Assembly (NCBI GenBank): GCA_029261965.1
Contig: JAJDAH010000275.1
Span: forward strand, 1-46,157
Length of the DNA: 46,157 nucleotides
Direction of reading: 5' to 3'
From: Polyangiaceae bacterium
GTDB lineage: Bacteria; Myxococcota_A; Polyangia; Polyangiales; Polyangiaceae
In this document: piece by piece, positions 10,565-40,152 of the stretch
Position numbering within the stretch: position 1 is the first letter of the stretch
How the letters are laid out: every line of letters begins with the position of its first letter
The notes under the pieces: generated by a model
The model's input: only the letters and a program-made list of their open reading frames with translations
What the model was told of the DNA's origin: nothing
Databases searched by the model: none
Made by a program: the position numbers and the translations under genes

Positions 10565-12748
10565 CTAATCGAAAGAGCGATTCTCGGCGTCTTCGATTTG
10601 ACCTAGGGCGGCGGCGAGAGCGTCCTTGGCTTTCTCGAGGGACTGTTTGTCCTCGTTCCACTTGCTGCGCGCCTTCTCGACTTTGCTGAGCTCGGCGTCG
10701 AGCGCTTCCTTCGTCTCCGTGTAATCGGCCTTCACGGATGCGACTTCGGCTTCGAGCGACGCTACCGCACCGTCGCGTTGCTCGATCGTTTCCCGGGCGC
10801 TGCTGAGCTCGTCCTTGGTGGACGCCAGCTCGGCCTCCACCGAAGCGATCTTCTCGTCGCGCGTGGCGATTTCGGAGGTCGCTTCGTCCCGTGCCTTGAT
10901 GGCTTCGGCGAGGTTCTCTTCGAGCTCGGCGAGCTTCGCGTCGCGGCTAGCTTCGCCCTCTTCTTTGGCCGCGCGGGTTTCAGTGAGGCTCTGCTCGGTT
11001 TCTTGGAGGGTGGCCTTCGTGGCTTCGTGCGCGCTTTCCGCCGCTTCCATCGCTGCGGCGTGCTCGGCGCCGAGCTCGGCCTCTCGCACTGCGAGCTTCT
11101 CTGTCGCCGCTTCTTCGGCCTCGGTCAGCGATTGCTCGTGCTCGGCCTTGAGCTTGTTGGTCGCTTCGCCGTTGGCGCGATGTAGAGCGGCGAGCTTCGA
11201 GTCGGTCTCCTTTTTGAGCTCGGCTTCGCGAGCCGCGATGGCTTCGGACTGAGCTTCGGTGGCTTTGGCGGTCGCCTCTTCGAGCTCGACCTGCAGCTCG
11301 CTTTGAGCTTGCTCTTTGGCTTCCGCGAGTGCGGCCTCGGTTGCTGCATGGCCACGTTCCTCGGCCTCGGCGATTGCTGCGGCCTTGTCGCTCTCCGCCT
11401 TTTCCAGCGCCTCCTGATGGTCGGCCCGGAGAGCGGCCTCGCTTGCGTCGCGAGTGGCCAACTCCTCCTCGTGTTTGTCCCTGAGCTCCTGGATTTCCTG
11501 TCCACGAGCGTCGAGGTCGGCTTTGGTCTTTTCGAATTTCTTCTTGAAGTCGTCCGCGCGCTTTGCGGCCTGCTCCTTGTCGGCCGCGGCGCTCTCGAGC
11601 TGGTGTTTCGTGTCGTGGATCTCTTTTTCGAGGGCGATGATCTTGTCGTCGAGATCCGCTTTTTCGCGCTCGAAGCTGAGGGAGCTGTCCTTCGTGCTGA
11701 GTAGCTCTTTCTCTTTGTGAGTCAGCTCGTCGCGAAGGTCGAGGATCTCCTTGTCCTTCTTGTTGAGTGCCTCCCGCAGATCGAGAAATTCGCGAGCCGA
11801 GCCCCCGGCACCCTTGGTGGCCGCGGCCGCCTTGGCCTTGGCTTCGTCGAGCTCGCGCTGCAGTCGTTGGACCTCCGAGTCCTTGCCTGCGCCTCTCTTG
11901 AGATCGTCCTCGAGTTCGCCGATTTTCGCCTTGGCGTCGGCCAGCTCCTTCTCGGCGGCGTCGGCCCGTGCGCGGTGTCGTTCTGTTTCCTGCGTCCCCG
12001 GAGCGACGCTCGCCGGCCGAGGCGGGATTGAGGTTGGGGCTCGCGGGGGCGGCGGCAGGGGCTCGGGTTCTGGTTCCGGCTCGATGTCCAGGGGTTCCGC
12101 AGCCGCGGGTTCTGCGGATGCGGGTGCTGGTGTCGCGCTCGGCTCGGGTTCAGGCGCGGGACCGGGGGGATCCCCCGGGGCTTCGTCGAGCAGCTTGTCG
12201 AACGCATCTTCCGTGAAGCTGTCGACTTCGTCGTCCACGATGCTGGCGGGGCCGTCGTCGACGTCCGCGGCGCCAACCGTGCTGTCCTCTTCTTCGATCT
12301 CGTCGATGGGTTCGGCGTCTTCGAAGTCGATGTCGTCGTCGATGACGATGGCCTCTTCACTCATCGGCGCGGCTTCGAGAGATACATGCGCCTGAATTCG
12401 TTGAAGCAGCTCGCCAAACGAAATCGGCTTGTGCACGTAGTCTTCGGCGCGCGTGCGCAACCTGCGGTGCTGCTCGAACGTCTCGTCGGTGGAGTCGCTG
12501 CTCATGATGATGAGCGGGACGTCTTTGAGATTCTTGTCGCGCTTGAGCTTGTTGCAGACGCTGAACCCGTTCATCCGCGGCAACTCGATCGACAAGAGGA
12601 TGAGATCGGGTTTGTCACCCGCCGCCGCCGTCAATCCAGCGTTGCCATCGTCGACGACCGTCGCCGTGCAGCCGAGCTTTTCGAGCTCGCTTTGAAGCTC
12701 AGAGGCGAACGCAGCGTCCGCCTCGAAAACCAGGACCTTTTGGGACAT
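10565..12748 (-). CDS. FrzS-like pseudo-receiver/coiled-coil protein
   Basis: 727 residues in three parts. Residues 1-122 form a CheY-like receiver fold. Acidic residues E9/D11 and Lys107 (YVHKP) are kept, but the phospho-accepting Asp position is Ser53 (DLILLS), so phosphorylation is not expected. Residues about 130-250 are an acidic and Pro-rich linker. From about 255 to the end the protein is a long Glu/Ala/Lys coiled coil. This order and the QHRRLRTRAEDYV segment closely recall FrzS of Myxococcus xanthus, a polar protein required for type IV pilus-dependent motility whose receiver also lacks the Asp. A polarity or motility scaffold role is inferred. GGAG lies four bases before the ATG. 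No frz or pil genes are adjacent. Confidence 0.85.
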   Translation of the reverse strand: MSQKVLVFEADAAFASELQSELEKLGCTATVVDDGNAGLTAAAGDKPDLILLSIELPRMNGFSVCNKLKRDKNLKDVPLIIMSSDSTDETFEQHRRLRTRAEDYVHKPISFGELLQRIQAHVSLEAAPMSEEAIVIDDDIDFEDAEPIDEIEEEDSTVGAADVDDGPASIVDDEVDSFTEDAFDKLLDEAPGDPPGPAPEPEPSATPAPASAEPAAAEPLDIEPEPEPEPLPPPPRAPTSIPPRPASVAPGTQETERHRARADAAEKELADAKAKIGELEDDLKRGAGKDSEVQRLQRELDEAKAKAAAATKGAGGSAREFLDLREALNKKDKEILDLRDELTHKEKELLSTKDSSLSFEREKADLDDKIIALEKEIHDTKHQLESAAADKEQAAKRADDFKKKFEKTKADLDARGQEIQELRDKHEEELATRDASEAALRADHQEALEKAESDKAAAIAEAEERGHAATEAALAEAKEQAQSELQVELEEATAKATEAQSEAIAAREAELKKETDSKLAALHRANGEATNKLKAEHEQSLTEAEEAATEKLAVREAELGAEHAAAMEAAESAHEATKATLQETEQSLTETRAAKEEGEASRDAKLAELEENLAEAIKARDEATSEIATRDEKIASVEAELASTKDELSSARETIEQRDGAVASLEAEVASVKADYTETKEALDAELSKVEKARSKWNEDKQSLEKAKDALAAALGQIEDAENRSFD

Positions 12749-12863: not shown

Positions 12864-13523
12864 CTATGGCCGCCGCTTGGCTTTTTCCTCGTGTCCGCCC
12901 ACCCCTGCTCGTGCGGCCAGGACTTCGATAACCGTCCGGAGGGGAACGTCCCGTCCCCGAAGGGCGACGAGCAGGTGATAGAGCAAGTCAGCCGCCTCGC
13001 TCGCGACCCTCTCCGGGCTTTCGTCGGCCACGGCCCGCGAAAGCTCCTCGGCTTCCTCCCGCAGCTTGGCACCGATCTTCGCCGGTCCGCCTTCGAGAAG
13101 GGACTTGGTGTAGCTCTTTTGGGCCGTGCTGGACTTCCGAGCTTCGAGCTCGCGGTCCAGCTCGGACAAGAACGCTTCGGCTTCGTGCTCGAGGTCCTTC
13201 ACCGAGCCGTCCTTTTCTACGCGTCGGAAGAAACAGGCGGGCCGGCCCGTGTGGCAGGATGGGCCCTCGGGGTCGACGTGCAGGACGAGAGTGTCGGCGT
13301 CGCAGTCCGCGTAGACCGCGTGAACCCGCAGTTTGTTACCGCTGGTTTCACCTTTCTCCCAAAGGGCCTGGCGCGATCTGCTGTAGAACCACGCGAACCC
13401 GGAGCTGAGCGTTCGCTCGAGGGCCTCTCGGCTCATCCAGGCCACCATTCGGATCTGGCCAGTCAGGCGGTCTTGGGCAACCGCCGGAATCAGGCCCCTT
13501 TGGTCGAACTCGAGGTCAGTCAC
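12864..13523 (-). CDS. hisI: Bifunctional phosphoribosyl-AMP cyclohydrolase / phosphoribosyl-ATP pyrophosphatase
   Basis: 219 residues, carrying out the second and third steps of histidine synthesis. The HisI part (about 1-105) has the metal ligands in D73-C-D-A-D77 and C90/C97 (PSCHTGRPACFF). The HisE part (about 110-205) has the helical LREEAEELSRAV and ASEAADLLYHLLVAL segments with the Glu/Asp residues that bind Mg-PRPP-ATP. No other his genes are present, so histidine genes are scattered in this genome. The C-terminus is Lys/Arg-rich. The gene is divergent from the cytochrome/propeller operon across 228 bases. Confidence 0.95.
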   Translation of the reverse strand: MTDLEFDQRGLIPAVAQDRLTGQIRMVAWMSREALERTLSSGFAWFYSRSRQALWEKGETSGNKLRVHAVYADCDADTLVLHVDPEGPSCHTGRPACFFRRVEKDGSVKDLEHEAEAFLSELDRELEARKSSTAQKSYTKSLLEGGPAKIGAKLREEAEELSRAVADESPERVASEAADLLYHLLVALRGRDVPLRTVIEVLAARAGVGGHEEKAKRRP

Positions 13524-13751: not shown

Positions 13752-16058
13752 ATGACTGGACGTCGATTCCTGACAGCTCTTCCGCTGCTCGGCTTCCTCG
13801 CTTTCGGCTGCACCAACGATGCTCCGCAAGACGACGACCGAGGCTTCAGCAAGATTGTCTACGCGGTGCGCACGCACACCATCGTCGGTGAAGACGGATC
13901 GGTGTCGGTCGACGTGGCTGGAGGCATGGGGCAGGTGATGGACTACCTGCGCTACAACCCGGGTGCCCGCCTCGAGATTCGCGACCTCAACACCGGGGTC
14001 GTCGAAAACATCATCGACGGCGACCGGTACAAGAACGCCGACGTTTCGAGCTTCGACGTCAGTTTCGACGCGCAGAAGGTCGTCTTCAGCATGAAGCTGA
14101 GCGGCGACGACGACTATCACCTCTACACGGCGGACGTCACGCGGGGCGAAACCGAAAAGAACCCCTTCAACATCCACCAGCTCACCTTCGGGCCCCACGA
14201 CGACATTCACCCGCAGTTCGTCTCCGGTGGGCGAATCGCCTTCGTGACGGCGCAGCCGTACACCGAAATGGGTACGCGCGCGGACGAGTACAACCACAGT
14301 CGCATCGTCACGCAGATCGGCACCATCACGGTGGAAGGTGGCGACGCGGATCGGAAGCTCTGCTCGCAGAACCTCTCGCACACCATCAACCTTCGAGCGC
14401 TGAGCGATGGTCGCGTCCTGTTCTCGCGTTGGGAGCATCTCGAGAACGTCAACGACGTCAAGCTCTTCAGCATGAACCCCGACTGCACCCAAATGGTCGC
14501 GATGGGCGGTCAGCACGGCAAGCCGGCCAACTCGCTCGTTCAGCTCGTCGAGACCAAGGACCCGAACGTGTTCGTCGGGGTGGCCACCTCGCGCGAGGAC
14601 ACGATCCAAGCCGGAGCGCTCGTGGAGATCAACGTGGGCGCGGAGCACGACGCCACCGTGGTCGACGAGGAGCGCGCGGTCATGACGGTCATCACCGACG
14701 GTGTTCCGACGGGCGAGGAACCCTCACCTGTCGGACGATATCGGGCGCCCGCCGTGTTGCCCGACGGTCGAATCCTGACCTCTTGGGCGGCGGGTTTCGT
14801 CAATGCCCTCGACGAGCTCGCGTTGAGCCCGCCGGACTTCGGCATCTACATCTACGACAAGAAGACGAAGACCAACGAGCTCGTCGTCAACTACGAGGGC
14901 AGCTGGGAGCTCTACGCGCTTCCGCTCACCCCGCGGGCCGAGCCACCGATCATCGGGTCGATTCAGAACTCCCAGGACCCGACGGTCCCGGTTCAGCTCG
15001 GCTCGATCGACGTGCGTTCGACTTCGCTCGCGTTCGTGCACGGAGAAACCGTCTCCGGCGCCCAGTTCGACGGAACGCCGACCGACGTGGCGCTTGCTTC
15101 CGCCGACCGGGTTCGCATCATCGAGGGCTTCTCGAGCGAGGCCGCCGCTGGCGTCAACATGTTCGGCCTCACGATGGCCGAGGGCGCAGCGATTCTCGGT
15201 GAAGCCAAGGTCGAGGAAGACGGTTCGTGGCTGGCGGAGATTCCTCCGTTCATCCCAGTCCACCTTCAGCCAATCGACGAGTTCGACTTGGCCATCCGGA
15301 ACCAGACCACGTGGATTCAGGGCATGCCCGGCGAGTCGCGCGTTTGCGGCGGTTGTCACGAGGAGCGAGTCGGCGTGAACACCCCGACCAACCAGCAGCT
15401 GTCGATTGCCGCTGGTCGTGGTGCGCAGGACTTCATGGTCGCCGTCAACGATCGCATCGAATACCCCTGGATCAACGCGACCGCGGGTAACCCGAACGAG
15501 ATTCAGGCCATCTTCAACGACAAGTGCGTGGCCTGTCACAACGGGACGACCAACGGCAGTCGCGCGCAGGAGTACTACACCGTCACCGTGACCGACGAGA
15601 TCGCCGGGACAGCCGTGCCGTACCAGGTTCCTCGCTTGGACCTGACCGATACGCCCGTCACGGTCGAGTACGACATGGAGGTTCAGGATTGGCCGGCGTC
15701 TTACGTGTCAATCTTCTATCCGGCCGCCATGGAGATGGAAATGGACGATGCCATGGTCGCCGGCACCGTGCCGCCGATGTGGGGCATCCCCAGCGACGCT
15801 CGCAACAGCAAGCTCATCGAGAAGCTGAACGTGACGTCGGTCAACGACGCGGGCATCCACGCTTGGCCACTCGGCCAAGGCTTCACCGACGCGAACATCC
15901 AGGGCGCATCCCGAACCGATCACGCTGCGGAGGTCGGGCTGACTCGTGAAGAGATCGTGAAGCTCATTCGAGCCATCGACATGGGCGGTCAGTACTACGC
16001 CCGCCAGAACACGGACTTCGTCCCCTTCGACAACAATCCGCTCGGTCGGAATTACTAA
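13752..16058 (+). CDS. Diheme propeller lipoprotein (hydrazine-synthase-alpha-like architecture)
   Basis: 768 residues from the ATG at 13752, with AGGAG upstream. The signal peptide ends in LAFGC. Residues about 30-430 hold blades of a TolB/PD40-type propeller (FDAQKVVFSMKLSGDDDY, DIHPQFVSGGRIAFVT, LSDGRVLFSRWEHL, VLPDGRILTSW). The C-terminal third has two c-type heme motifs, CGGCH at 532-536 and CVACH at 592-596. The order propeller then CxxCH, and phrases such as DGRVLFSRWEH, recall the alpha subunit of hydrazine synthase and many uncharacterised envelope cytochromes. No anammox genes are present, so hydrazine chemistry is not implied. It is probably an outer-membrane or periplasmic electron-transfer protein. 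The HEAT gene follows after 18 bases. Confidence 0.85.
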   Translation: MTGRRFLTALPLLGFLAFGCTNDAPQDDDRGFSKIVYAVRTHTIVGEDGSVSVDVAGGMGQVMDYLRYNPGARLEIRDLNTGVVENIIDGDRYKNADVSSFDVSFDAQKVVFSMKLSGDDDYHLYTADVTRGETEKNPFNIHQLTFGPHDDIHPQFVSGGRIAFVTAQPYTEMGTRADEYNHSRIVTQIGTITVEGGDADRKLCSQNLSHTINLRALSDGRVLFSRWEHLENVNDVKLFSMNPDCTQMVAMGGQHGKPANSLVQLVETKDPNVFVGVATSREDTIQAGALVEINVGAEHDATVVDEERAVMTVITDGVPTGEEPSPVGRYRAPAVLPDGRILTSWAAGFVNALDELALSPPDFGIYIYDKKTKTNELVVNYEGSWELYALPLTPRAEPPIIGSIQNSQDPTVPVQLGSIDVRSTSLAFVHGETVSGAQFDGTPTDVALASADRVRIIEGFSSEAAAGVNMFGLTMAEGAAILGEAKVEEDGSWLAEIPPFIPVHLQPIDEFDLAIRNQTTWIQGMPGESRVCGGCHEERVGVNTPTNQQLSIAAGRGAQDFMVAVNDRIEYPWINATAGNPNEIQAIFNDKCVACHNGTTNGSRAQEYYTVTVTDEIAGTAVPYQVPRLDLTDTPVTVEYDMEVQDWPASYVSIFYPAAMEMEMDDAMVAGTVPPMWGIPSDARNSKLIEKLNVTSVNDAGIHAWPLGQGFTDANIQGASRTDHAAEVGLTREEIVKLIRAIDMGGQYYARQNTDFVPFDNNPLGRNY

Positions 16059-16076
16059 GGAACCAAAGGCAAGAAC

Positions 16077-17018
16077 ATGAAGATTCGAAACGCCTTTATC
16101 GGAAGCCTCGTCGCTGCGGCCACGTCGCTACTCGTCACCGCCAGCGCGGCGGACGTGAGCCCGGAGAAAATCCACGTCGGGCGCTCGCACGTCTACAAGA
16201 ACCTGTCCCCGGAATCTCTCGAGTCCACGAGCTCCCCCGAGCGAATCCGGCAAGTGACGGCGGGGAACACTGCGCCGACCGAGATCTGGACCGTGCTCGA
16301 GCACGGCGAACGTGTGGAATGTCTCGACTGCATTCCCGATGTCGCCAAGCTCATGTACGACGGCCACCCGAAGACCCGGGAGATCTCGGTCTGGTGGCTT
16401 CGTCGTCGCGTGTTCGGGGTCTTCAACCCGGGCGCGAACGGTAGCCCGAGCATCTATCGCCAGGTGGCCATGACCCTTCAGGACCAGTCGCAGCCCGAGT
16501 CTCGTCGCGCCTTTGCTGCCGAAGCGCTCGGTGAGTTTCTGGTCTCCGCGGGCGTGCCATTCGTCGCGGAAGCCGCGGTGAACGATCCGTCGCCGGTCGT
16601 GCGGTTGGCCTCGGTTGGAGCTCTGGAGCGACTCAACTACGAGGGCCCAGGCGGTGAGCTCGGGCAAGCGATGGCCGACGACAACGTCGACGTTCGGGTG
16701 CGCGCCTTGCGTGCGTCCACACGAATCAACGTGTTCACGGGTGTCGCCGACATCGTGCAGCGCATCGACGACGACTCTCCGCGGGTTCGTCTCAAGGCGG
16801 CTCAAGCGCTCGGCATGATGCGGGCGACCGATGCGGTTGTCGGTCTCGTGGCCCTCGCGTCGTCGAGCAACGAGTCTGACCCTGGTGTTCGTGCCGCAGC
16901 GGTTGCGGCACTCGGTCAAATCGCGGATCCCGGCGGCAAGGCGGCGGCGCAGGCCGCTCTCGAAGACCCGGACCACTTCGTCCAGGACGCCGCGCGCATC
17001 GCCCTGCGTCGGCTCTGA
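16077..17018 (+). CDS. Exported HEAT-repeat protein
   Basis: 313 residues with a cleavable signal peptide (about 1-24, ending TASA). From about residue 130 to the end there are HEAT/PBS-lyase-type helical repeats (RRAFAAEALGEF, SPVVRLASVGAL, VDVRVRALRAS, PRVRLKAAQALG, PGVRAAAVAALGQ, FVQDAARIALR). The part before this is unique and contains CLDC without a following His, so it is not a normal heme site. HEAT arrays mediate protein contacts. Lying between two heme/propeller lipoproteins on the same strand, it probably scaffolds them in the periplasm. Confidence 0.85.
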   Translation: MKIRNAFIGSLVAAATSLLVTASAADVSPEKIHVGRSHVYKNLSPESLESTSSPERIRQVTAGNTAPTEIWTVLEHGERVECLDCIPDVAKLMYDGHPKTREISVWWLRRRVFGVFNPGANGSPSIYRQVAMTLQDQSQPESRRAFAAEALGEFLVSAGVPFVAEAAVNDPSPVVRLASVGALERLNYEGPGGELGQAMADDNVDVRVRALRASTRINVFTGVADIVQRIDDDSPRVRLKAAQALGMMRATDAVVGLVALASSSNESDPGVRAAAVAALGQIADPGGKAAAQAALEDPDHFVQDAARIALRRL

Positions 17019-17152
17019 GCTTTTGGCAGGCCGTTTTTCAACGGCGTGCTGGACAGCGATTGCTCGCAGCGCCATATCTCGGTGTCGCGAGCGCTCGTTT
17101 TGGGTGTTCGTCGGCGAGCCGAAGCGATGCCCATTGTTTTTTCCTCAGCACG

Positions 17153-17170
17153 TCGATTCTGCCGAATCGA
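17153..17170 (+). promoter_or_regulatory. Hairpin before the third gene of the heme operon
   Basis: TCGATTC-tgcc-GAATCGA forms a perfect 7-base stem with a 4-base loop. It ends about 10 bases before the ribosome site (TAAGGA) of the gene starting at 17193. The 174-base gap (17019-17192) holds no gene. A weaker CCGTT-tttc-AACGG stem lies just after the HEAT stop. These may tune the relative output of the three genes or mark RNA processing. Confidence 0.35.
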
Positions 17171-17192
17171 TGCACTAAGCTAAGGAACGGAC

Positions 17193-20100
17193 ATGGGGCG
17201 AACGTCGATCGCGCTCATTCTTTCGCTCGGCAGCGCCGTTGCCGTTGCGGCGTGCAGCGCTGAAGAGCGCCAAGCGACGACGACGTTCTACGAGCGTCGC
17301 ATTGCGCCGGTCGTCGAGGGATCTTGTCTCAAGAGCCCGTCGGGGTCCGGCTGCCACGTCACTGCCGACGACCGTGGAAACGCCCTCGGGAACCTGAGTG
17401 TCGAATCCTACGACGACCTCGTGCTTCGCCGGGATTTGCTCGTCGACTACGGCCCTTACGGGATGCCGAACCTCTTGCTCAAGGTCGCCGGACCGCTTCA
17501 GCTCCGACTCACGACGTGGGATAGCCCCGATCCGATTCTGATCACTACCGACATCCCTCACGCCGGCGGCGCGCTGATCGAGCCGGCGTCGAGCGGGTTC
17601 ACGACCTTGCTTCGATGGATGGAAAACGGAGCGGCGGAAAACAACGCCACGGAGCCTCCGGAAGAGATCGAGCTCCGCCGCTGCACCACGAACCTCGGTG
17701 TCGATCCGCTCTTCGACCCCAATGTGGATCCCCCGGACGCCGATTTTCAGCGCTTCCGCGATGAGGTCAATCCGATTCTCTCGGGCACGTGCGCCGCGGG
17801 CAATTGTCACGGCACACCCGCGAACGCCCTGTATCTCACGTGCGGCGCGACCGACGAAGAGACGCGATGGAACTACTTTGCCGCGAGCGAATACGTTTCG
17901 GTGGATGTGAGCACGAGCGAAATTCTCCGGCGCACGCTCGACCCGGGGCAGGGCGGTACGTTCCACGAAGGCGGCACGATCTACGAGAGCACGAGCAACT
18001 CGGACTATCGAGCTATCGCCGACTGGGCCGAGGAGAAGGGTGGCCCGAGCAATCTCCCCGCCGAACGCGGGTTCGATTTCTTCGCTAAGCGCGTCCAACC
18101 CATGCTCGCCAAGAAGGGCTGCATGATCCTCGGCTGCCACTCGCCAGCGATGTTCCACGACTACCGTCTGCGTGGAGGCAGCGGTGGTCATTTCGGCTTG
18201 CCAGCGACGCGCACGAACTACGATCTCAGCCTCGAGCAGATCGCCCTCGAGTCGAGCGACCCCAACGCGTCGCGCCTGATTCGGAAGAACCTGCCCGCCA
18301 CGGCGAGCGTCGGCGGGATCCGCCACCGCGGTGGCCCGCTCTTCGCTGGTGCCGGGACGACTCCGTGCGATCCGGTTGGAGCTGAAACTGGGCCTATCGA
18401 CGATCAGGATCCGTACTGCGTGATCACTCGCTGGATCGAAATCGAGCGAGAGGAACGCATGCTGAATGTCGGCGCTGCCCCGCTCAGCGGCATCTTGTTC
18501 GTTCGACGCCCCCCGCGCGGAGGCGCCGCGACGCCTCAGGACTACGCCCAGTACGATCCCGGCGCCGACCTCGTCCTGGCGTCGGCTTCGATGGACGCCG
18601 CGGGCGTGGTGACCGCTGGTGGCGGTGAGACGAGCCTCACCGCGGCGTGTGGTCTCGACCCGACGTCAGCGGACATTCGCCGACCGGCGGTTTCGTGGGA
18701 CGGCACCAGGCTCGCGTTTGCCGCCCGTTCGTCCGCGGGGGAGCCGTGGCGGGTTTTCACCGCGGCATCCGACGGCTCGGTGTGCGCACCGGAAGCGTCG
18801 ATAAACGCACCAGCGGTCGACGAGGACGGCAACTCCGTCCCGGACAACGGTGAGCCCATCCACAACTTCGACCCGGCGTTCTCGCCTCGCGGGGAAATCG
18901 TCTTCGCGTCGACCCGAGGCAATACGAAGAATGTTGGCGCCTTCAGTTACCAGGGGCCGCAGCGCGCACCTGCGGATCCTTCGAAGCAGAACGCGAACCT
19001 CTACGTGCTCGAGAACGACGGAGGAGTCCGTCAGCTCACCTTCCTCTTGAACCAGGAGCTATTGCCGTCGTTCATGAGCGATGGGCGGGTCATCTTCACG
19101 ACCGAAAAGCGTGCACCGGGGTTCTACCAGCTCGCGGGGCGTCGCCAGAATCTGGACGGCGGTGACTACCATCCGTTGTTCGGCCAACGAAGCACCATCG
19201 ACTACGAGCAATTCACCGATGTCGTCGAGCTCAGCGACAAGAATCTCGCGGCGATCTTCAGCGACCGTGGCGCGACCCACGGTGCCGGCACCTTGGCGCT
19301 AATCAACCGCTCGATCGGAGTCGATCAAGCCAGCATCGACGAGGCGGACTATCTCGTCGACCCGGGGGCCATCGGGTTCCCCAATCCTAACTTCTACCAA
19401 AAGTCGATCACGATCGTGGACGGCGCGGCCACCGGCAAGCTGGGCGGTACGGCCGGCGCCTACAAGAACCCATCCCCGCTCCCCAATGGGGATCTCGTCG
19501 TGAGTTACGCGGCGAACGTGACTGACGTCGCGGCCGTCAGCGGTAACTTCGATATCGTCATGGTCGACACGGGTAACGGTTCGCGGACACCGATCGTCCA
19601 AGGCCCGCAAGACGAGATCTGGCCGGTGGCGGTCTACGCGCGGCTGAACCGAGGCGTCTTCCAATCGCGCTTCGACGAGCCGAACGGTCACACGCAAGTG
19701 TTCAACGACGATCGCCGAGATCGCTCAGAAATCACCGTCGTCGATGCGCCGCTCATCGTGAGCCTGCTTTTCCAGAACACGCGATCGGGGCGTCGCCTTC
19801 CAGAGCTCGACGAGCTTCGCGTCTACGAGAGTCTGCCGCCCGAGCCGGGAGTCGTGGATTTCGGTTCGGGGGGCTCGTTCGTCACCGGCGATGCGTTCGG
19901 CGATGTGTACGTGCGTCGGCGCCTACTCGGAAGCGCTGGTCTCGAGGACGACGGTTCGGTGAAATTCGAGATCCCCGGCGGAATGCCCATCGTGCTCGCG
20001 GCCAACGTGCAGCTGAACGGCGACAGCGCGCCGACGTTGCATCACCAGCGCGAAGAAATGCAGTTCTATCCCGGAGAGTTTGCGCGCCAGTCGTTCAAGT

Positions 20101-20276
20101 CCGAGCTGTTCAACGGGCTGTGCGGTGGTTGCCATGGCTCGGTGGCCGGCCTCGAAAACCACATCGCGGTCAATCCGGACATCTTGACCCGGGCATCCAT
20201 CATTACCGCCCGCGACCGGGATCCGGTCAATTTGCGCGGTGGCGGCGGTGACATCGTGGGCCCGCCGTTCCCCTGA
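17193..20276 (+). CDS. Large propeller lipoprotein with atypical heme motifs
   Basis: 1027 residues, lipoprotein signal ending VAAC (Cys21). Three repeats of an F-x(3)-(V/I)-x-P-(I/V/M)-(V/L) segment each precede a Cys...CH pair: C45-x8-C54-H55, C200-x4-C205-H206 and C310-x4-C315-H316. A normal CGGCH is at 977-981 near the C-terminus. Between residues about 430 and 850 lie propeller-type segments (VSWDGTRLAFAARSS, FDPAFSPRGEIVFASTRG, PSFMSDGRVIFTTEK, PSPLPNGDLVVSYAAN). The repeated contexts resemble planctomycete-type cytochrome c domains (VRPILxxxCxxCH). CX4CH is a known but rare heme c motif; CX8CH may be non-functional or a loop variant. It likely works with the 13752-16058 product. Confidence 0.85.
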   Translation: MGRTSIALILSLGSAVAVAACSAEERQATTTFYERRIAPVVEGSCLKSPSGSGCHVTADDRGNALGNLSVESYDDLVLRRDLLVDYGPYGMPNLLLKVAGPLQLRLTTWDSPDPILITTDIPHAGGALIEPASSGFTTLLRWMENGAAENNATEPPEEIELRRCTTNLGVDPLFDPNVDPPDADFQRFRDEVNPILSGTCAAGNCHGTPANALYLTCGATDEETRWNYFAASEYVSVDVSTSEILRRTLDPGQGGTFHEGGTIYESTSNSDYRAIADWAEEKGGPSNLPAERGFDFFAKRVQPMLAKKGCMILGCHSPAMFHDYRLRGGSGGHFGLPATRTNYDLSLEQIALESSDPNASRLIRKNLPATASVGGIRHRGGPLFAGAGTTPCDPVGAETGPIDDQDPYCVITRWIEIEREERMLNVGAAPLSGILFVRRPPRGGAATPQDYAQYDPGADLVLASASMDAAGVVTAGGGETSLTAACGLDPTSADIRRPAVSWDGTRLAFAARSSAGEPWRVFTAASDGSVCAPEASINAPAVDEDGNSVPDNGEPIHNFDPAFSPRGEIVFASTRGNTKNVGAFSYQGPQRAPADPSKQNANLYVLENDGGVRQLTFLLNQELLPSFMSDGRVIFTTEKRAPGFYQLAGRRQNLDGGDYHPLFGQRSTIDYEQFTDVVELSDKNLAAIFSDRGATHGAGTLALINRSIGVDQASIDEADYLVDPGAIGFPNPNFYQKSITIVDGAATGKLGGTAGAYKNPSPLPNGDLVVSYAANVTDVAAVSGNFDIVMVDTGNGSRTPIVQGPQDEIWPVAVYARLNRGVFQSRFDEPNGHTQVFNDDRRDRSEITVVDAPLIVSLLFQNTRSGRRLPELDELRVYESLPPEPGVVDFGSGGSFVTGDAFGDVYVRRRLLGSAGLEDDGSVKFEIPGGMPIVLAANVQLNGDSAPTLHHQREEMQFYPGEFARQSFKSELFNGLCGGCHGSVAGLENHIAVNPDILTRASIITARDRDPVNLRGGGGDIVGPPFP

Positions 20277-20429
20277 GGCAGACCGGGGCGTCGGAAGAGC
20301 CAACGCCGAGTCTCGGAAGGCCGAGCGCGACCCGAGCGAAAACACGATGCATGGCGGGGGCGTCGAGGGGGAGGCGCGGCCCTGGTGGCGCGAAGCGCCG
20401 CGCAGGAGACAAGGGTATGCTGCGCCGAC

Positions 20430-22859
20430 GTGACCGCGCGCGCTCGATACCTCCAGGTCTATGCGGGAGTCGCGCTGTGTAGCGGAGCGGGCATAGCCGC
20501 CCAGGTGGCGTTCACACGAATTTTTTCGCTGACTCTGTGGCACCACTACGCGTTTCTCGTTTTAGGAGTCGCGCTGTCGGGCTTTGGCATCGCGGGAGCG
20601 TGGTTGACCGCCCGCGGTGGCGCGCTCCGCGAGGGTGACGGGGGTCTTCACGTCGCCCTCGGTCGTCGGGCGCGCCGCGCGGCCCTATTGAGCCTGGTGA
20701 GTCTCGCGCTCGTCGGCATCCTGCGGTTCAATTCGCTGCACCTGTTCACCGACCCATCGGTGGTCCTGGCGTTGTCGGTCGTCATCGCGGCTTCGGCGGT
20801 GCCCTTCATCGGCGTTGGTATCATCATCGGCACGGCGTTGGCGGCGAAGGAAACCCCGCCCAATAGAGTCTACGCCGCGGATCTGCTCGGGGCAGCGCTT
20901 GCCGCGGTGGCGATCAGTGCGCTGCTCAACGTTTTCGGCGCACCGCTGTCGTTGATTGGGGCCACGATTTTGATCGGCTTGGCGGGATGTGTGTTCGTCG
21001 CGGGGCACAACCGCGCCGAACTCAAGCGCAGCGCGTGGACTGTCGTGTTGCTGCTCGCGGCCGCGCTCGGCTACGGCAACGATGACCACTGGCTCTTGCC
21101 GGCGTTCACCAAGGAAATCTACCTGGTGCACAACCCGCTGATGGGCACGCACAACATCGAGTACCGCGAGTGGACGAGCCAGGGGCGAATCGACGTGTCG
21201 GCGGACTTCCAGGGTGTCCCGGGCCTCGGAGGAGAGGTGGCTACGCCGAGGCCGGTGCACACCCGTCTCGTCACGCAAGACGGCGCGGCGCCCACAGCTC
21301 TATTTCGTTTGCCGGGGGAACCGGCGGATCTCGACTTCTTGTTCCGGGCGACGACGTCGGCGGTCTGGCACTTGCGCGGCGCCGCGGCGCATCGGGGCCC
21401 GCCACCGCCGGAGGGCCCCGAGATGCTGGTGATCGGCCTCGGAGGAGGCGCCGACGCGTTGATGGGCCTGGCTTTCGGCGCGGGCGACGTGACCGGGGTC
21501 GATATCAACCACGCCATGTTGGGGCTGCACACCGACCGGTTTCGGGACTATTCGCGCCTCACGGAGCTGTCCGGCCTCTCGCTGGTGCGCGCAGACGGCC
21601 GCAGTTTTTTGATGTCCACTGACGCGCAGTACGACGTCATCCAGCTGTCCGGCGTCGACACGTTCACGGCTCTGTCGAGCGGCGCTTACAGTCTCGCGGA
21701 GGCGTACGTTTATACGGCAGAGGCGTTCAACGAATACTTCGCTCACCTGAAGCCTGGCGGTTGTTTGTCGATGTCGAGACTGATCCTCGATCCGCCTCGG
21801 GAAACGCTGCGGTTGGCAGCGACCGCCAGAGACGCACTGGCGGCGTGGGACGACGAGAACGCGCACCGGCACATCGCCATCCTCCGAGGCCGCACTTGGG
21901 CGACGATGGTGGCGTGTGCTCGCCCGATCGATGCGCTCGAGATGTCTCGTCTTCGCCGGTTCGCTGAACGACACCAGTTTCAGATCGCGTTCGATCCCGA
22001 GCGTCCCGCCGGTGACGCGTTCGGCCGCCTGTTGACGGGCACGCCGGCTGCGCGCGCAGACTTCATCCGGAACCATCCATATCGTGTCGAACCGGTCACG
22101 GACGAGAAGCCGTTTTTCTTCGACTTCTTTCGTCCCTCGCAGCTATTGGCCCTCGGCTCAGAGGCGAGCACCGACCACCCTTATGCGGCGCGATTGCCGG
22201 TGGGGCACGGGCTGATGCTGGCCTCGGTCTTTGTCACGCTCCTGTTGTCTGTTTTTGGGATTTGGTGGCCGTTGAGACGCGCCGGCATCGCGCTCGGGCC
22301 CGATGACCGAGTCGAGCTCCGATACTTTGCGGGCCTGGGCGCGGGATATCTTCTGGTCGAAGTAGGGCTGATCCAGCGGCTCTCCTTCCTCTTGGGCCAT
22401 CCGACCTACGGGCTCACCGTCGTGCTCGGTAGTTTGCTCGGCGCCTCGGGCCTCGGGGCAGCGCTGACTCTCCGGCTCGGCCCGGCGCGGTTGCGCGGGC
22501 TGCCCTGGTTGGTCGGCATCGCGATTCTCGCAACCGCGGTAGCGAGCTATCTCTTCTTGCCGGGCTGGCTCAGCCTACCGTTCGGCACGCGTCTTGGCCT
22601 GTCCCTGCTCTTGACCGTTCCGTTGGGGTTCGTGCTTGGCATGCCGTTTCCACTCGGCATTGCTCGTCTGCGCGCCGCGAACCCGGCTATCGTGCCGTGG
22701 GCGTTCGGCACGAACGCTTTTTTCACGGTCGTTGCGAGCTCCGCAGCGCCACTATTGGCCATGGGGACGGGTTTCTCGGGGCTATTGGTCGTAGCGGCGC
22801 TGCTGTACGCCGTGGCGCTGGTGAGCTCGGTGCCCGCGGCTCCACAGACGGCGTCATGA
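20430..22859 (+). CDS. Membrane-embedded spermidine-synthase-like protein
   Basis: 809 residues from the GTG at 20430. A GTG at 20385 has a better ribosome site (GGGGGAGG) but adds codons rare in this genome. Several transmembrane helices occupy the first ~220 residues. A SpeE-like Rossmann domain follows (about 330-560) with VIGLGGGADALMG for SAM-type nucleotide binding, VTGVDIN, RADGRSFL and VIQLSGVDTF. At least five more helices lie at the C-terminus (about 590-800). This architecture is known as a membrane 'spermidine synthase' family whose real substrate is unsettled; polyamine synthesis should not be assumed. The stop overlaps the next start (ATGA), so the two proteins are made together. 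Confidence 0.85.
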   Translation: MTARARYLQVYAGVALCSGAGIAAQVAFTRIFSLTLWHHYAFLVLGVALSGFGIAGAWLTARGGALREGDGGLHVALGRRARRAALLSLVSLALVGILRFNSLHLFTDPSVVLALSVVIAASAVPFIGVGIIIGTALAAKETPPNRVYAADLLGAALAAVAISALLNVFGAPLSLIGATILIGLAGCVFVAGHNRAELKRSAWTVVLLLAAALGYGNDDHWLLPAFTKEIYLVHNPLMGTHNIEYREWTSQGRIDVSADFQGVPGLGGEVATPRPVHTRLVTQDGAAPTALFRLPGEPADLDFLFRATTSAVWHLRGAAAHRGPPPPEGPEMLVIGLGGGADALMGLAFGAGDVTGVDINHAMLGLHTDRFRDYSRLTELSGLSLVRADGRSFLMSTDAQYDVIQLSGVDTFTALSSGAYSLAEAYVYTAEAFNEYFAHLKPGGCLSMSRLILDPPRETLRLAATARDALAAWDDENAHRHIAILRGRTWATMVACARPIDALEMSRLRRFAERHQFQIAFDPERPAGDAFGRLLTGTPAARADFIRNHPYRVEPVTDEKPFFFDFFRPSQLLALGSEASTDHPYAARLPVGHGLMLASVFVTLLLSVFGIWWPLRRAGIALGPDDRVELRYFAGLGAGYLLVEVGLIQRLSFLLGHPTYGLTVVLGSLLGASGLGAALTLRLGPARLRGLPWLVGIAILATAVASYLFLPGWLSLPFGTRLGLSLLLTVPLGFVLGMPFPLGIARLRAANPAIVPWAFGTNAFFTVVASSAAPLLAMGTGFSGLLVVAALLYAVALVSSVPAAPQTAS

Positions 22860-25318
22860 CATTTTCCGGCGCCATGCCACACCGGCGGTATCTCTATCTC
22901 GCGGCGGCGATCGTGCTCGTCGCCTTGGGCATGCGCTTTCCCGCGCTGCTGTTCGACTTTGCCGGAGACGACTACGCGCAAGTAGCGATGGTCGACGGCA
23001 CTTTTCCGGTTTCACGACCCGCGTGGTCGCTGTTCACGTTTTCCGGTGGTGAGCCGACCGAGGTCGCTGAGCTTCGTCGAGAGGGGTATCTGCCATGGTG
23101 GTCGGCAGATGACGTTCGGCTTTCTGTCCTTCGGCCGCTTCCGAGCTTGCTCATCTGGTTGGACCGCACGACCTTCGGCGACTCGTCGCTGCCGTATCAC
23201 CTGCATTCGCTCGTGTGGTGGCTCTGCCTCTGCGCTGCCGTGGCCAAGCTGCTGCATGCGCTTTTGCCGTCACGCGTTGCGCTGACCGCTCTCGCGGTGT
23301 TCACCTTCGACTCCTTGCACTCCGCCGTCTTGGGGTGGCTCGCCAATCGCAACGCGATTCTGGCCAGCCTGTTCGCCGTGATGGCGCTGCTCAGCCTGGT
23401 GAGCTTTCGACGAGGTCGTCGACGCCGGGATGCACTCTTCTCCGCGGCCTGGTTCGCGCTGGCGCTTTCATGCGGCGAGTATGCGTTGACCTTCATCGGC
23501 TACTTCGCTGCGCTCGTGTTGATCGATACCGAGGACCCGCTTCGCGATCGCATGTGGAGGCTCCTCCCCGTGGCATTGCCCGCGGTCGCGTATGTCGGGC
23601 TACGCACCGCGCTCGGTGCGGGGACGCGCGGCTCCGGCACCGCGCTCGACCCAATGGACCAGCCCCTAGAGTTCGTTCGTGCGCTGCCAGAGCGCGCCGG
23701 CGCGCTCTGGGCCGAGCTGATGTTCGAGGTTCCGGTCGACTTCTGGGCTTCGGTGTCGGTCTCCCTTCTTCAGACCGTCCTCTTGCTCGCTGGAGTCGGC
23801 GCGATCGCGCTTCTGGCGTTGACCGCCAAGCTCGGAGCGCGCGAGTCGGGTAAGGAGCTACGGGCGCTGCCCGCGGCCATGTTGGTGGGCGCTCTTTGGG
23901 CGACCATCCCTGTTTCTGCCACGTTGCCCGCGGGTCGTCATCTCCTGGCGGCTCAGTTGGGCGTCGCAACGGTCGTCGCGATCTTCCTCGCCCGGGTGCA
24001 CCGCGTGGTGACCGATCGCTTGTCCGGCGAAAAGAAAGCTCCGCTGATGGCGGTGGTCGGTATGAGCGCGTTGGCCCTCTGGCTCGTTGGCACGCAACTG
24101 CTCGTCGCCCCCGCGAGGTCATACGTCGAAGCGTCGGTGCTGGCGGATTACAGCGAGAGCTCGCGGGCGAGCGTCTTGTCGCTCGGCGGGCTCGAGCGAA
24201 GTTCCCCCGATCAGCGCGTCTACATCGTGCGTGCGTCGGACCCGACGTTCATGCTCTACCCATCGCTGATTCGTTCGCAGCACGGGAGACCCCGTCACGC
24301 TGGTCAACCACCTATCTACACTTTGAGTGGCTCTCCGCATCCTATCGTCGTGAAACGAGACGGCCCGAAGAGCTTGCTGCTTTCGGCGCCCCAGGGCGGA
24401 GGGCTCCTGACTGGGCTCTTCGAGCGGATGTTCCGCAGCGACGCCGCGCCGTTTCGGTCAGGAGATGGAGTTGCGTTGAGCGGGCTCCACGTCGAGGTGG
24501 TCGAGGTCGATGACGGGAGACCAGCGCGTGTGAGATTCCTCTTCGAGAAGGATCTCGACGACCCTTCGATGGTGCTCTTGCTTCAAGTCGGCGCTGAGCT
24601 GATCACGTGGGCTCCGCCGGCGATTGGTCGGAGCAGCATCGTGTCGGCTCAGCCTAGCCTCGTCCCGGGTACCGAGCAGCACTACCGGAGGCTCAAAGAG
24701 CCCTCGTCGGAGGGGCTCGGCGTTTTCTACATGGGTCGCGAGATCGCGCAACCGGTCGACCACCGCGGCGCCGCATGGCTCGAACGCGGTGAGCGCGAAG
24801 CGGAAGAGCAGCCGGGCGTCTTGCTGGATCATCTCGGTCTGAAACCTGGCATGACAGTGGCTGACATCGGTGCCGGCACGGGCTACATCAGCTGGCGGAT
24901 CGCCAAGCGCATCGCGCCGAATGGTGTCGTGCTCGCTGTGGACGTCGACCCGAAGTCACTCGAGATCCTTCGAGCTCGCATGAAGGCGGAGGGCGTCGGC
25001 AACGTCCGGCCCATTCTCGGTTCGGTTACCGACCCTCGCCTCGAACCCGGATCGGTCGACCTGGCGTTGATGGTGGACGTCTACCACGAGATGTCGAAAC
25101 CCCATGAGATGCTCGCCGCCATCGCCGAATCACTGAAGCCCGATGGTCGGGTAGTTCTTGTCGAGTACCGCGGTGAAGACGAGGCGAGCACCGTGCGCCC
25201 CCTTCACAAGATGACGCGCGCCCAGGTGAAGAAGGAGGCCATCGTTCACAGGCTCGTTTGGCGACGCACGCTCGACGTGTTGCCGACGCAGCACGTGCTT
25301 TTTTTCGCTCGGAATTAG
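22856..25318 (+). CDS. Multi-pass GT-C-like membrane protein fused to SAM methyltransferase
   Basis: 820 residues from the ATG overlapping the upstream stop; an in-frame ATG at 22874 is also possible. Residues about 1-430 contain roughly ten hydrophobic helices. The first loop has AGDDYAQ, the acidic pair placed as in GT-C (dolichyl/polyprenyl-phosphate-dependent) glycosyltransferases. A soluble beta-rich region follows (about 440-620). The C-terminal domain opens with YMGREIAQ and GAAWLERGERE, then a class I methyltransferase with motif I DIGAGTGY near 669, AVDVDP, and VDVYHEM. Such a fusion is unusual. It suggests modification of a membrane-anchored glycan or lipid at one site, but the substrate is unknown. 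The methyltransferase half could also be read as an independent enzyme that became joined. Confidence 0.82.
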   Translation: MTFSGAMPHRRYLYLAAAIVLVALGMRFPALLFDFAGDDYAQVAMVDGTFPVSRPAWSLFTFSGGEPTEVAELRREGYLPWWSADDVRLSVLRPLPSLLIWLDRTTFGDSSLPYHLHSLVWWLCLCAAVAKLLHALLPSRVALTALAVFTFDSLHSAVLGWLANRNAILASLFAVMALLSLVSFRRGRRRRDALFSAAWFALALSCGEYALTFIGYFAALVLIDTEDPLRDRMWRLLPVALPAVAYVGLRTALGAGTRGSGTALDPMDQPLEFVRALPERAGALWAELMFEVPVDFWASVSVSLLQTVLLLAGVGAIALLALTAKLGARESGKELRALPAAMLVGALWATIPVSATLPAGRHLLAAQLGVATVVAIFLARVHRVVTDRLSGEKKAPLMAVVGMSALALWLVGTQLLVAPARSYVEASVLADYSESSRASVLSLGGLERSSPDQRVYIVRASDPTFMLYPSLIRSQHGRPRHAGQPPIYTLSGSPHPIVVKRDGPKSLLLSAPQGGGLLTGLFERMFRSDAAPFRSGDGVALSGLHVEVVEVDDGRPARVRFLFEKDLDDPSMVLLLQVGAELITWAPPAIGRSSIVSAQPSLVPGTEQHYRRLKEPSSEGLGVFYMGREIAQPVDHRGAAWLERGEREAEEQPGVLLDHLGLKPGMTVADIGAGTGYISWRIAKRIAPNGVVLAVDVDPKSLEILRARMKAEGVGNVRPILGSVTDPRLEPGSVDLALMVDVYHEMSKPHEMLAAIAESLKPDGRVVLVEYRGEDEASTVRPLHKMTRAQVKKEAIVHRLVWRRTLDVLPTQHVLFFARN

Positions 25319-37392: not shown

Positions 37393-40152
37393 TCAGTCGG
37401 TGCTCAGGCTTTTTTCGATCTCGCGTAGGCCGCCTTCAACGTCGCTCCCGAGGTGAACTCGAATGACCCGACGATCCCGTTTGCGAAGAACTTCGAGGTC
37501 GCCGAGGGCCTGGGCGTCTCGGAGCACGCCGAACGAGTACTTGCGCCCGGGAATGTCGACGTCGTCCGGGGCGTCCGCGGTGAGAACAATGAAGACTCCG
37601 TTGTTGCCGCCGCCTTTGTGTAGCTGTCCGGTGGAGTGCAGGAAACGAGGTCCGTAGCCCAAGGTCGTGGCCGCCCGGGTTCTGCGACGGATCTGCTCGC
37701 GAATTCGGGCACACGTCTCGGCACGCTCGTCCGTGCGCATCGCATAGAGCGACAGCACGACGTAGTCGCCCGAGCTGACTGAGTCGAGCAACTTCGCTAC
37801 GTCCGCACCTCCCGGTTTCACCGAGGCGATGTCGGGCAGTTTGCCGCTCTTCTCGAACGCTTCGATGATCGCTCCGGTGGCGTTTTTGGCTTCGGTGACG
37901 TTGGGCTCGTCGAACGGGTTCACGCCGAGCACGCTGCCCATGACCGCCGTGGCCGTCTCCCAACGAAAGAACTCACCGCCGAGGTCGTGTTTCGCCAGCA
38001 TGCCGATTTGAGCGACCGGGTGACCACGCCCGATCAGCGCATCGACCTTCTTGTCGAGAGCGCTCGGCTTCCGTCCGCCATATCGAACGTAAACGAACGC
38101 GCGATCGTCGCCGTAATCGTCTGGCGATCCGAGGGGCTCGAGATCGATGGGGACCACCCCTTTGCCCTGCTTGCCGGTCGATTCCGCGACGAGCTGTTCG
38201 ATCCACGAGCCGAGCGTTTCGACTTCTGGCGAAGCGATGATGGTCAGCTTGTCGCGTCCGCTGCGGGCGAGGCCGCCGACGAATGCCCCCAAGCGAACGC
38301 CAGGGTTGTCGTCGGCCGGAACCACCGAGGCACAACCGACGGCCATACGCTCACCGTCGTCGACGAGGGCGTCGACGTCCGCGCCGATGAGCGCGGCGGG
38401 AACGAGGCCGAAGAACGAGATTGCCGAATACCGCCCGCCGATGTCTGCGGCGTTTTCGAAGACGCGCCGGTAGCCTTTCTCCGCGGCCATGGTGACGAGC
38501 GCGCTCCCCGGGTCGCTGATGGCCATGAAATGCGCGCCGGTTTCGTCGCCGAGCACGGCCCCCGCTTTCTCCCAGAAGAACGCTTCGAAGCACTGCACCT
38601 CGATGGTCGAACCGCTCTTGCTCGCTACGACGTAGGCTGTGGTCTTCGGGTCCGTCCATTCGAGGGCGTCACGAACCGCGGCCGGGTCGGTGCTATCGAG
38701 CACTCGCAACTCCAAGAACCCGGGTGTGGTCCCGTAGGTCGTGGCCAATACTTCCGGACACAGACTCGAGCCGCCCATACCCAGCAGAAGCGCCTTCCGG
38801 AACCCTTCCTTCGAGAGCTTGCGAGCAAACGCGGTCAGGTCGTCCACGTGATCCCGCATGACCTCGGGCGAATGCAGCCACCCGAGCCGGTTCTTGATCG
38901 ACTCCTCGGCGTCCGGATCGGAGGTGAACAACGACGGATCAATGCTCCACAACCGGCGAGGAGCCTCTTTTTTTCCGAGTGACTTCAACGTGTCGAGCAC
39001 CGGTGCGGCCGACGCCCCGAGCGAGATCCGCTGCCGCTCGGAGGTCTGTTCGAGCAGCGCTTCGCGGCGCGCCTCGATGACTCCGAGCAGCCGCTCCATC
39101 GAATCGGCGAACGACTTCAGTCCTTGCTCGAGCAACTCGCTGCAAATCGAGTCCAAGTCGATCCCGAGGGCTCCAAGGGCGTCGAGCTGTTGATTCGACT
39201 TCGGATGGCCCTGCTCGAGTGCCGGGGCCAGCTCCCCGTGGTCCTGGAATGCCACCAGCGTTCCGGGGGGCGTGGTGTTGACGGTTTCCTTGCCGATGAG
39301 CGCATCGACATAGAGCGTGTCCTTGTAGTTCGGATTCTTCGTGCTCGTCGACGCCCAAAGCAGCCTCTGAGGCCGTGCGCCGTGATCCCGGAGCTTGGCG
39401 AAACGCTCTCCACCGAAGATTTCTTCGTATTTTTGATAAGCAGCCTTGGCGTTTGCGATCGCAATCTGCCCGAGCAGCTTCTGCGCATCGGGTCCGCCTT
39501 TCTCCTCGAGGGCGCGGTCGACGGCGCTGTCGACGCGACTTACGAAAAAGCTTGCGACCGAGCTGACGCCGTCGAGGGGCTCACCCGCTTCGTCGAGTCG
39601 TTCGAGTCCGGCGATGTATGCTTCGGCCACTTTTTCATACTGAGCGATGCCGAAGATCAGCGTGACGTTGACGCTGATCGCCTGGCCGATGAGCTCGGTG
39701 ATGGCAGCGCTTCCTTCCGACGTCGCGGGGACCTTGATCATCAAGTTGTCGCGTCCGATCGACTTGTGGAGCTTGAGCGCTTCGGAAACCGTACCCTTGG
39801 GGTCGCGGGCGAGCTTGGGGCTGACCTCGACGGAGATGTAGCCGTCTCCCCCCTCGGAGCTCTCGTAGGTCGACCGGAGCACGTCTGCACCTTCTCGGAT
39901 GTCCTGCACCACGAGGTCGAAGTACACTTGCTCGACGCTTGCTGCTTCGGCGACGAGTCTCCGTAGGGCTTCGTCGTAGTCGGTCGACCCGCTGATCGCT
40001 TTCTCGAAGATCGTCGGGTTGCTGGTGACTCCGCGCACGCCCTCCCGGACGAGTCGAGCGAGCTCCCCGGACCGCAACAGGCCGCGACGGATGTTGTCGT
40101 ACCAGATGCTCTGGCCGAAGCCCTCGTAGACTCGAATCGCGTTGGTTTCCAT
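37393..40152 (-). CDS. tal-pgi: Transaldolase/glucose-6-phosphate isomerase fusion
   Basis: 919 residues, two enzymes in one chain. The N-terminal part (about 1-365) is a transaldolase, with TSNPTIFEKAI and the Schiff-base Lys140 in LMIKVPATSEG. The C-terminal part (about 385-919) is a sugar isomerase with GMGGSSLCPEV and the SIS-type phosphate loop VVASKSGST. Together they link the pentose phosphate pathway with fructose-6-phosphate/glucose-6-phosphate interconversion. Such fusions are known in cyanobacteria, actinobacteria and some proteobacteria. The cutA gene ends three bases upstream and the DedA gene starts one base downstream, so the block is tightly packed. Confidence 0.95.
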   Translation of the reverse strand: METNAIRVYEGFGQSIWYDNIRRGLLRSGELARLVREGVRGVTSNPTIFEKAISGSTDYDEALRRLVAEAASVEQVYFDLVVQDIREGADVLRSTYESSEGGDGYISVEVSPKLARDPKGTVSEALKLHKSIGRDNLMIKVPATSEGSAAITELIGQAISVNVTLIFGIAQYEKVAEAYIAGLERLDEAGEPLDGVSSVASFFVSRVDSAVDRALEEKGGPDAQKLLGQIAIANAKAAYQKYEEIFGGERFAKLRDHGARPQRLLWASTSTKNPNYKDTLYVDALIGKETVNTTPPGTLVAFQDHGELAPALEQGHPKSNQQLDALGALGIDLDSICSELLEQGLKSFADSMERLLGVIEARREALLEQTSERQRISLGASAAPVLDTLKSLGKKEAPRRLWSIDPSLFTSDPDAEESIKNRLGWLHSPEVMRDHVDDLTAFARKLSKEGFRKALLLGMGGSSLCPEVLATTYGTTPGFLELRVLDSTDPAAVRDALEWTDPKTTAYVVASKSGSTIEVQCFEAFFWEKAGAVLGDETGAHFMAISDPGSALVTMAAEKGYRRVFENAADIGGRYSAISFFGLVPAALIGADVDALVDDGERMAVGCASVVPADDNPGVRLGAFVGGLARSGRDKLTIIASPEVETLGSWIEQLVAESTGKQGKGVVPIDLEPLGSPDDYGDDRAFVYVRYGGRKPSALDKKVDALIGRGHPVAQIGMLAKHDLGGEFFRWETATAVMGSVLGVNPFDEPNVTEAKNATGAIIEAFEKSGKLPDIASVKPGGADVAKLLDSVSSGDYVVLSLYAMRTDERAETCARIREQIRRRTRAATTLGYGPRFLHSTGQLHKGGGNNGVFIVLTADAPDDVDIPGRKYSFGVLRDAQALGDLEVLRKRDRRVIRVHLGSDVEGGLREIEKSLSTD

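Follow-up and report, generated by a model that had tools for sequence, protein, structure and literature searches.

We identified a conserved three-gene cassette, P1–HEAT–P3, in a Polyangiaceae genome. Two of its products, the lipoproteins P1 and P3, are homologous to one another as well as to the alpha subunit of hydrazine synthase (HZS-alpha); the gene between theirs encodes an exported HEAT-repeat protein. The three proteins probably form an envelope-anchored multiheme redox complex, in which HEAT would accompany two subunits of the HZS-alpha type. The cassette is not a hydrazine synthase.

Gene Organization of the Locus

The window, meaning the whole stretch of 46,157 nucleotides analysed here, is a single contig within a 9.6-Mb genome. 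The P1, HEAT and P3 genes share one strand, with intergenic gaps of 18 and 174 bases; the coordinates, strand and gaps of a preliminary description were reproduced (Table 1). The ribosome site of the P1 start (ATG at 13752) is GAGGAG, and those of the HEAT and P3 genes are AAGG-type. Searches for intrinsic terminators and sigma-70 promoters gave matches at chance level only.

Two big membrane proteins with methyltransferase domains are encoded immediately downstream (20385–22859 and 22697–25318, both +). They are not conserved beside the cassette. The stretches 10565–12748 and 12864–13523 (both −) hold a response regulator that adjoins HisIE in the close clade; its long tail is coiled-coil-like and highly variable in length among relatives. 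A transaldolase fused to a phosphoglucose-isomerase-like domain is encoded at 37393–40152 (−).

Table 1. Genes, domains and candidate functional residues of the P1–HEAT–P3 cassette (window positions).
Feature	Position	Strand	Description	Evidence
P1 gene	13752..16058	+	768 aa lipoprotein; six-bladed-type propeller, HZS_alpha middle domain, C-terminal cytochrome c domain	Pfam; 5c2v_A structural match
P1 signal peptide	13752..13811	+	candidate lipobox Cys20 (AFG/C)	sequence; Cys past the hydrophobic N-terminal stretch in homologues inspected
P1 HZS_alpha middle domain	15144..15362	+	residues 465–537	Pfam
P1 CGGCH	15345..15359	+	residues 532–536, alphaI-type heme site	C, C and H invariant in 41/41 homologues
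P1 CVACH	15525..15539	+	residues 592–596, alphaII-type heme site	invariant in 41/41; aligns with CAMCH of HZS-alpha
P1 His724	15921..15923	+	aligns with His772 of Kuenenia HZS-alpha, the distal ligand of heme alphaII	profile alignment; His in 40/41, one gap
HEAT gene	16077..17018	+	313 aa, exported HEAT-repeat protein, non-lipoprotein	HEAT_2 match; alignment
HEAT CxxC	16320..16331	+	CLDC, residues 82–85	invariant in 41/41
P3 gene	17193..20276	+	1027 aa lipoprotein; N-terminal triheme-type region, propeller, HZS_alpha-like domain with C-terminal CxxCH	Pfam; profile; 5c2v match
P3 signal peptide	17193..17255	+	lipobox Cys21 (VAA/C)	Cys21 invariant in 34/34
P3 CX8CH	17325..17357	+	residues 45–55; spacing 6–8 among homologues	Cys, Cys and His invariant in 34/34
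P3 His123	17559..17561	+	HAGG, candidate distal ligand, module 1	34/34
P3 CX4CH	17790..17810	+	residues 200–206	34/34
P3 His258	17964..17966	+	HEGG, candidate distal ligand, module 2	34/34
P3 CX4CH	18120..18140	+	residues 310–316	34/34
P3 His378	18324..18326	+	HRGG, candidate distal ligand, module 3	34/34
P3 CGGCH	20121..20135	+	residues 977–981, alphaI-type heme site	32/34 homologues, gap in the other two

Homology and Fold of P1 and P3

P1 matched the Pfam family HZS_alpha (PF18582) with an E-value of 5.5e-16 and 59.3 bits, above the cut-off of 26.6; P3 scored 18.8 bits, under it. P3 exceeded the cut-off of Pfam PD40, and the HEAT protein matched HEAT_2 (E 6.1e-25). Against the NCBIfam hydrazine_alpha equivalog (NF052339, cut-off 800 bits), both P1 (38.7 bits) and P3 (14.5 bits) fell far short. 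P3 also stayed far under the TolB equivalog cut-off of 343, at 11.1 bits.

Profile alignment showed that P1 (18 sequences) is related to HZS-alpha of Kuenenia stuttgartiensis (HzsA, 5c2v_A) at E 9.6e-16, in colinear pieces that take in the propeller at one end and the C-terminal helix at the other. The P3 profile matched the same chain at E 2.4e-8, and the P1 and P3 profiles matched each other at E 3.3e-26 across 469 columns (hhalign). The P1 alignment did not span the stretch with the zinc ligand Cys303, a residue that varies even among anammox bacteria (PMC12758564).

The best PDB match of the AlphaFold model of P1 was 5c2v_A (Foldseek 2.9e-22, Z 32.7, 575 aligned residues), followed by TolB (Z 24.9). 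The P3 model (316–1022) also matched 5c2v best (Foldseek 6.5e-19, Z 29.0, 468 aligned residues), and for both proteins this match stood well above TolB and other propellers. TolB shares the PD40-type propeller with P1 and P3 and is the second-best structural match (Z about 24), but it has no heme domains and the match is confined to the propeller. The pLDDT of the P1 model was 73.8, with poor values near the alphaI motif; that of the P3 model was 68.5, with poor values near the first heme module and mostly about 30–35 for residues 1–160.

The likeness of P1 to HZS-alpha, which the preliminary description had pointed out, is thus true homology by Pfam, profile alignment and structural match, and it extends to P3. 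That description had also assigned PD40 propellers and c-type heme motifs to both lipoproteins. The heme motifs were found in both; Pfam detected PD40 in P3 only, and the propeller of P1 is visible in its structure model.

Conserved Heme Motifs and Residues

The residue conservation is far beyond chance, being kept in 41 P1, 34 P3 and 41 HEAT sequences down to 30–40% identity; the 41 aligned P1 sequences include other families of the class. By their motifs, P1 and P3 would both count as c-type cytochromes, with heme attachment predicted. Tyr591 is the ligand of heme alphaI in HZS-alpha (PMC12758564, PMC12607021). A ligand of this type was not found in P1, where CGGCH is followed by E537, x538, R539 and mostly T540 across the 41 homologues.

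In P3, the HxGG histidines (H123, H258 and H378) sit 68, 52 and 62 residues past the first three CXnCH motifs. This repeated pairing suggests three bis-His c-heme modules, although the long-spaced CXnCH motifs are non-standard. The invariant CxxC of the HEAT protein had been missed in the preliminary description.

Conservation and Distribution of the Cassette

The order and strand of P1–HEAT–P3 were kept at 24 of the 29 named loci, and the remaining five are cut by contig ends, so that every uncut locus (24/24) retains the arrangement. The records of the 29 named P1 relatives are titled Myxococcales, Polyangia(ceae), Myxococcota, Sandaracinus, Sorangium, Deltaproteobacteria or Proteobacteria, and most are Polyangiaceae. 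The cassette is present in a complete genome of 10,327,335 bases from the same order. Additional families of the class have it too, with P1 middle domains about 40% identical to that of the window.

Among 97 relatives, 38 have both P1 and P3, two have P1 alone, one has P3 alone and 56 have neither (Fisher 2e-23, a count that ignores phylogeny). One of the P1-alone genomes is fragmented, and the other has P1 at a contig end. Presence is patchy, even from genus to genus. The preliminary description had proposed the three genes as one unit, with a failure to co-occur as the evidence against it; co-occurrence in 38 genomes against three single cases, together with the constant gene order, shows that the trio is a real conserved unit. 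In the close clade, pairwise protein distances of P1, HEAT and P3 correlated at 0.80–0.84, compared with 0.52–0.62 against the linked control HisIE; this is modest evidence, HisIE being short.

One exception was observed (G012, locus L130), in which P1–HEAT has no adjoining P3 and two P3 genes lie elsewhere. Stand-alone full-length P3 paralogues with no P1 or HEAT neighbour also occur in cassette-bearing genomes (L110–L119, L129). A 1925-aa reading frame at L041 that looked like a P1 fusion was rejected; its upstream portion is low-complexity read-through and no gene.

No gene outside the trio was general to the cassette in the 29 named and further class-level loci surveyed, and no conserved redox partner gene adjoins it. 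Since the neighbouring genes vary, the cassette is self-contained. HisIE and the response regulator represent close-clade synteny only, and a function read from these neighbours was rejected. Elsewhere the cassette is flanked by MutS and a SPOR-domain protein, both identified by sequence. At six order-level loci (L052, L054, L056, L057, L060 and L061), a DsbD-type thiol-disulfide gene lies divergently upstream.

Comparison with Hydrazine Synthase and Its Relatives

HzsA and P1 share the propeller, the HZS_alpha middle domain with CxxCH, a match over the full length, and a C-terminal class-I-like heme with a distal His (His772, equivalent to His724 of P1). P1 differs in lacking Tyr591, in being a lipoprotein and in scoring far under the equivalog cut-off. 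The cassette has no beta or gamma gene and instead pairs P1 with HEAT and another protein of HZS-alpha type. The preliminary description stated that no anammox genes exist here; consistent with this, no relative of HZS beta-gamma was matched in the cassette's own genome at E ≤ 1e-20. At the same threshold, only 4 of 40 cassette genomes gave a beta-gamma-type match, and a fused beta-gamma gene was not co-located with P1 in the 29 named and further class-level loci.

HZS-alpha homologues outside anammox bacteria were described as clades I–IV by Hagglund et al. 2025; they are heme-bearing and lack both Tyr591 and His772 (PMC12758564). Their alpha genes adjoin a fused beta-gamma gene and, in most cases, an FG-GAP (CRTAC1) gene (PMC12758564). 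P1 resembles these clades as a distant, heme-bearing HZS-alpha relative without Tyr591. Unlike them, it keeps the equivalent of His772 and has HEAT and P3 partners and no beta-gamma gene. In a middle-domain tree with the published clades I–IV left out, P1 grouped with the Kuenenia HzsA segment (support 0.79) and P3 stood apart.

The arrangement of alpha with fused beta-gamma has been published for Planctomycetota and Desulfobacterota (PMC12758564). In Myxococcota, we found loci (L108, L109, L121, L122 and L127) in which an HZS-alpha-like gene adjoins a gene for a fused propeller-diheme, beta-gamma-like protein matching HZS beta at 8e-10 and gamma at 2e-6. The alpha-like partner of such pairs (e.g., L127, L109, L108 and L121) is P3-like, having an N-terminal region that matches P3, a propeller and HZS_alpha. 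Its neighbour is the propeller-diheme protein, whereas the cassette has HEAT instead. A further Myxococcota group (L106, L107, L123, L124 and L125) encodes HZS_alpha-domain proteins of about 1050 aa in a different gene neighbourhood again.

The main text of PMC12758564 contains no Myxococcota, HEAT partner or P3 partner. No description of the P1–HEAT–P3 arrangement, or of Myxococcota members of HZS-alpha, was found in the open-licence literature. The earlier statement that no such three-part system had been described therefore holds within that literature, but the parent family of non-anammox HZS-alpha relatives is already described (PMC12758564).

Proposed Function

We favor, with moderate confidence, the reading that the cassette encodes an envelope-anchored redox complex. 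P1 and P3 are lipoproteins of the HZS-alpha fold, each with a propeller and a middle domain that would bear an alphaI-type c-heme. P1 would retain the second, bis-His alphaII-type heme. P3 would instead have three successive c-heme modules in its N-terminal part, marked by long CXnCH spacings and by distal histidines in HxGG. The HEAT protein may hold or mature the pair. Electrons would probably come in or go out by the bis-His triheme arm of P3 and travel on to the alphaI-type hemes, which would be the site of reaction with a small molecule or with a partner cytochrome. An envelope redox role is consistent with the conserved heme motifs and the lipoprotein signals. We count against it the exception in G012, the non-standard heme spacings in P3, the moderate confidence of both models and the lack of a conserved adjoining redox gene.

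It is possible, and we suggest it tentatively, that the cassette is a catalytic complex of two HZS-alpha-type subunits, one with a triheme arm, which works without beta-gamma, carries out small-molecule redox chemistry at the alphaI-type hemes and represents a living relative of the ancestor of HZS-alpha. Alternatively, P1 and P3 may be a pure electron conduit or store, with all hemes six-coordinate and no catalysis, linking periplasmic carriers with the outer membrane or surface. With E-x-R-T after CxxCH in place of Tyr591, the alphaI-type heme could be a c-heme of the usual kind, and the candidate bis-His arrangement in P3 points the same way. However, P1 keeps the HZS_alpha middle domain and strongly conserved surroundings, beyond the needs of a simple wire, and we regard a pure conduit as unlikely while giving it real weight. 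The HEAT protein, rather than being a structural scaffold, may be a maturation factor that handles thiols or holds apo-cytochromes with odd CXnCH spacing. Its CxxC is invariant in all 41 sequences, the DsbD-type gene lies upstream at six loci, and unusual heme motifs are known to have assembly factors of their own. The CxxC could, however, simply form a disulfide or bind a metal and we know of no heme-lyase fold made of HEAT repeats, so this role seems improbable to us.

We consider it highly improbable that the cassette senses redox state or gas ligands in the envelope. The propeller and heme domains could bind ligands and a response-regulator gene is close by in the close clade, but that gene adjoins HisIE, is divergent and lies away from the cassette in other families, and no sensor kinase or transmembrane part is present. 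Nitrogen chemistry of the hydrazine-synthase type, that is, N–N bond formation, receives almost no credence. The true HZS-alpha homology and the retained alphaII heme with its distal His speak for it. Against it, Tyr591 is absent, the beta-gamma search at E ≤ 1e-20 gave no match in the own genome and one in just four of the 40 cassette genomes, and the occurrence of the cassette does not follow that of NosZ (p 0.27) or NrfA (p 0.48). A link to denitrification or ammonification was likewise rejected on the latter ground. With an alphaI-type heme that lacks the hydrazine-synthase ligand and with the partner subunits absent, hydrazine synthesis itself is very unlikely; the score far under the equivalog cut-off adds to this, and we rejected it.

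Significance

To our knowledge, hydrazine synthase was long held to be without relatives. The cassette is retained in several families of another phylum, and its two diverged HZS-alpha-type proteins, with the alphaII distal ligand kept and a non-HZS partner, show that the alpha fold is in broader use beyond anammox and offer a route to the role of this fold before hydrazine-making.
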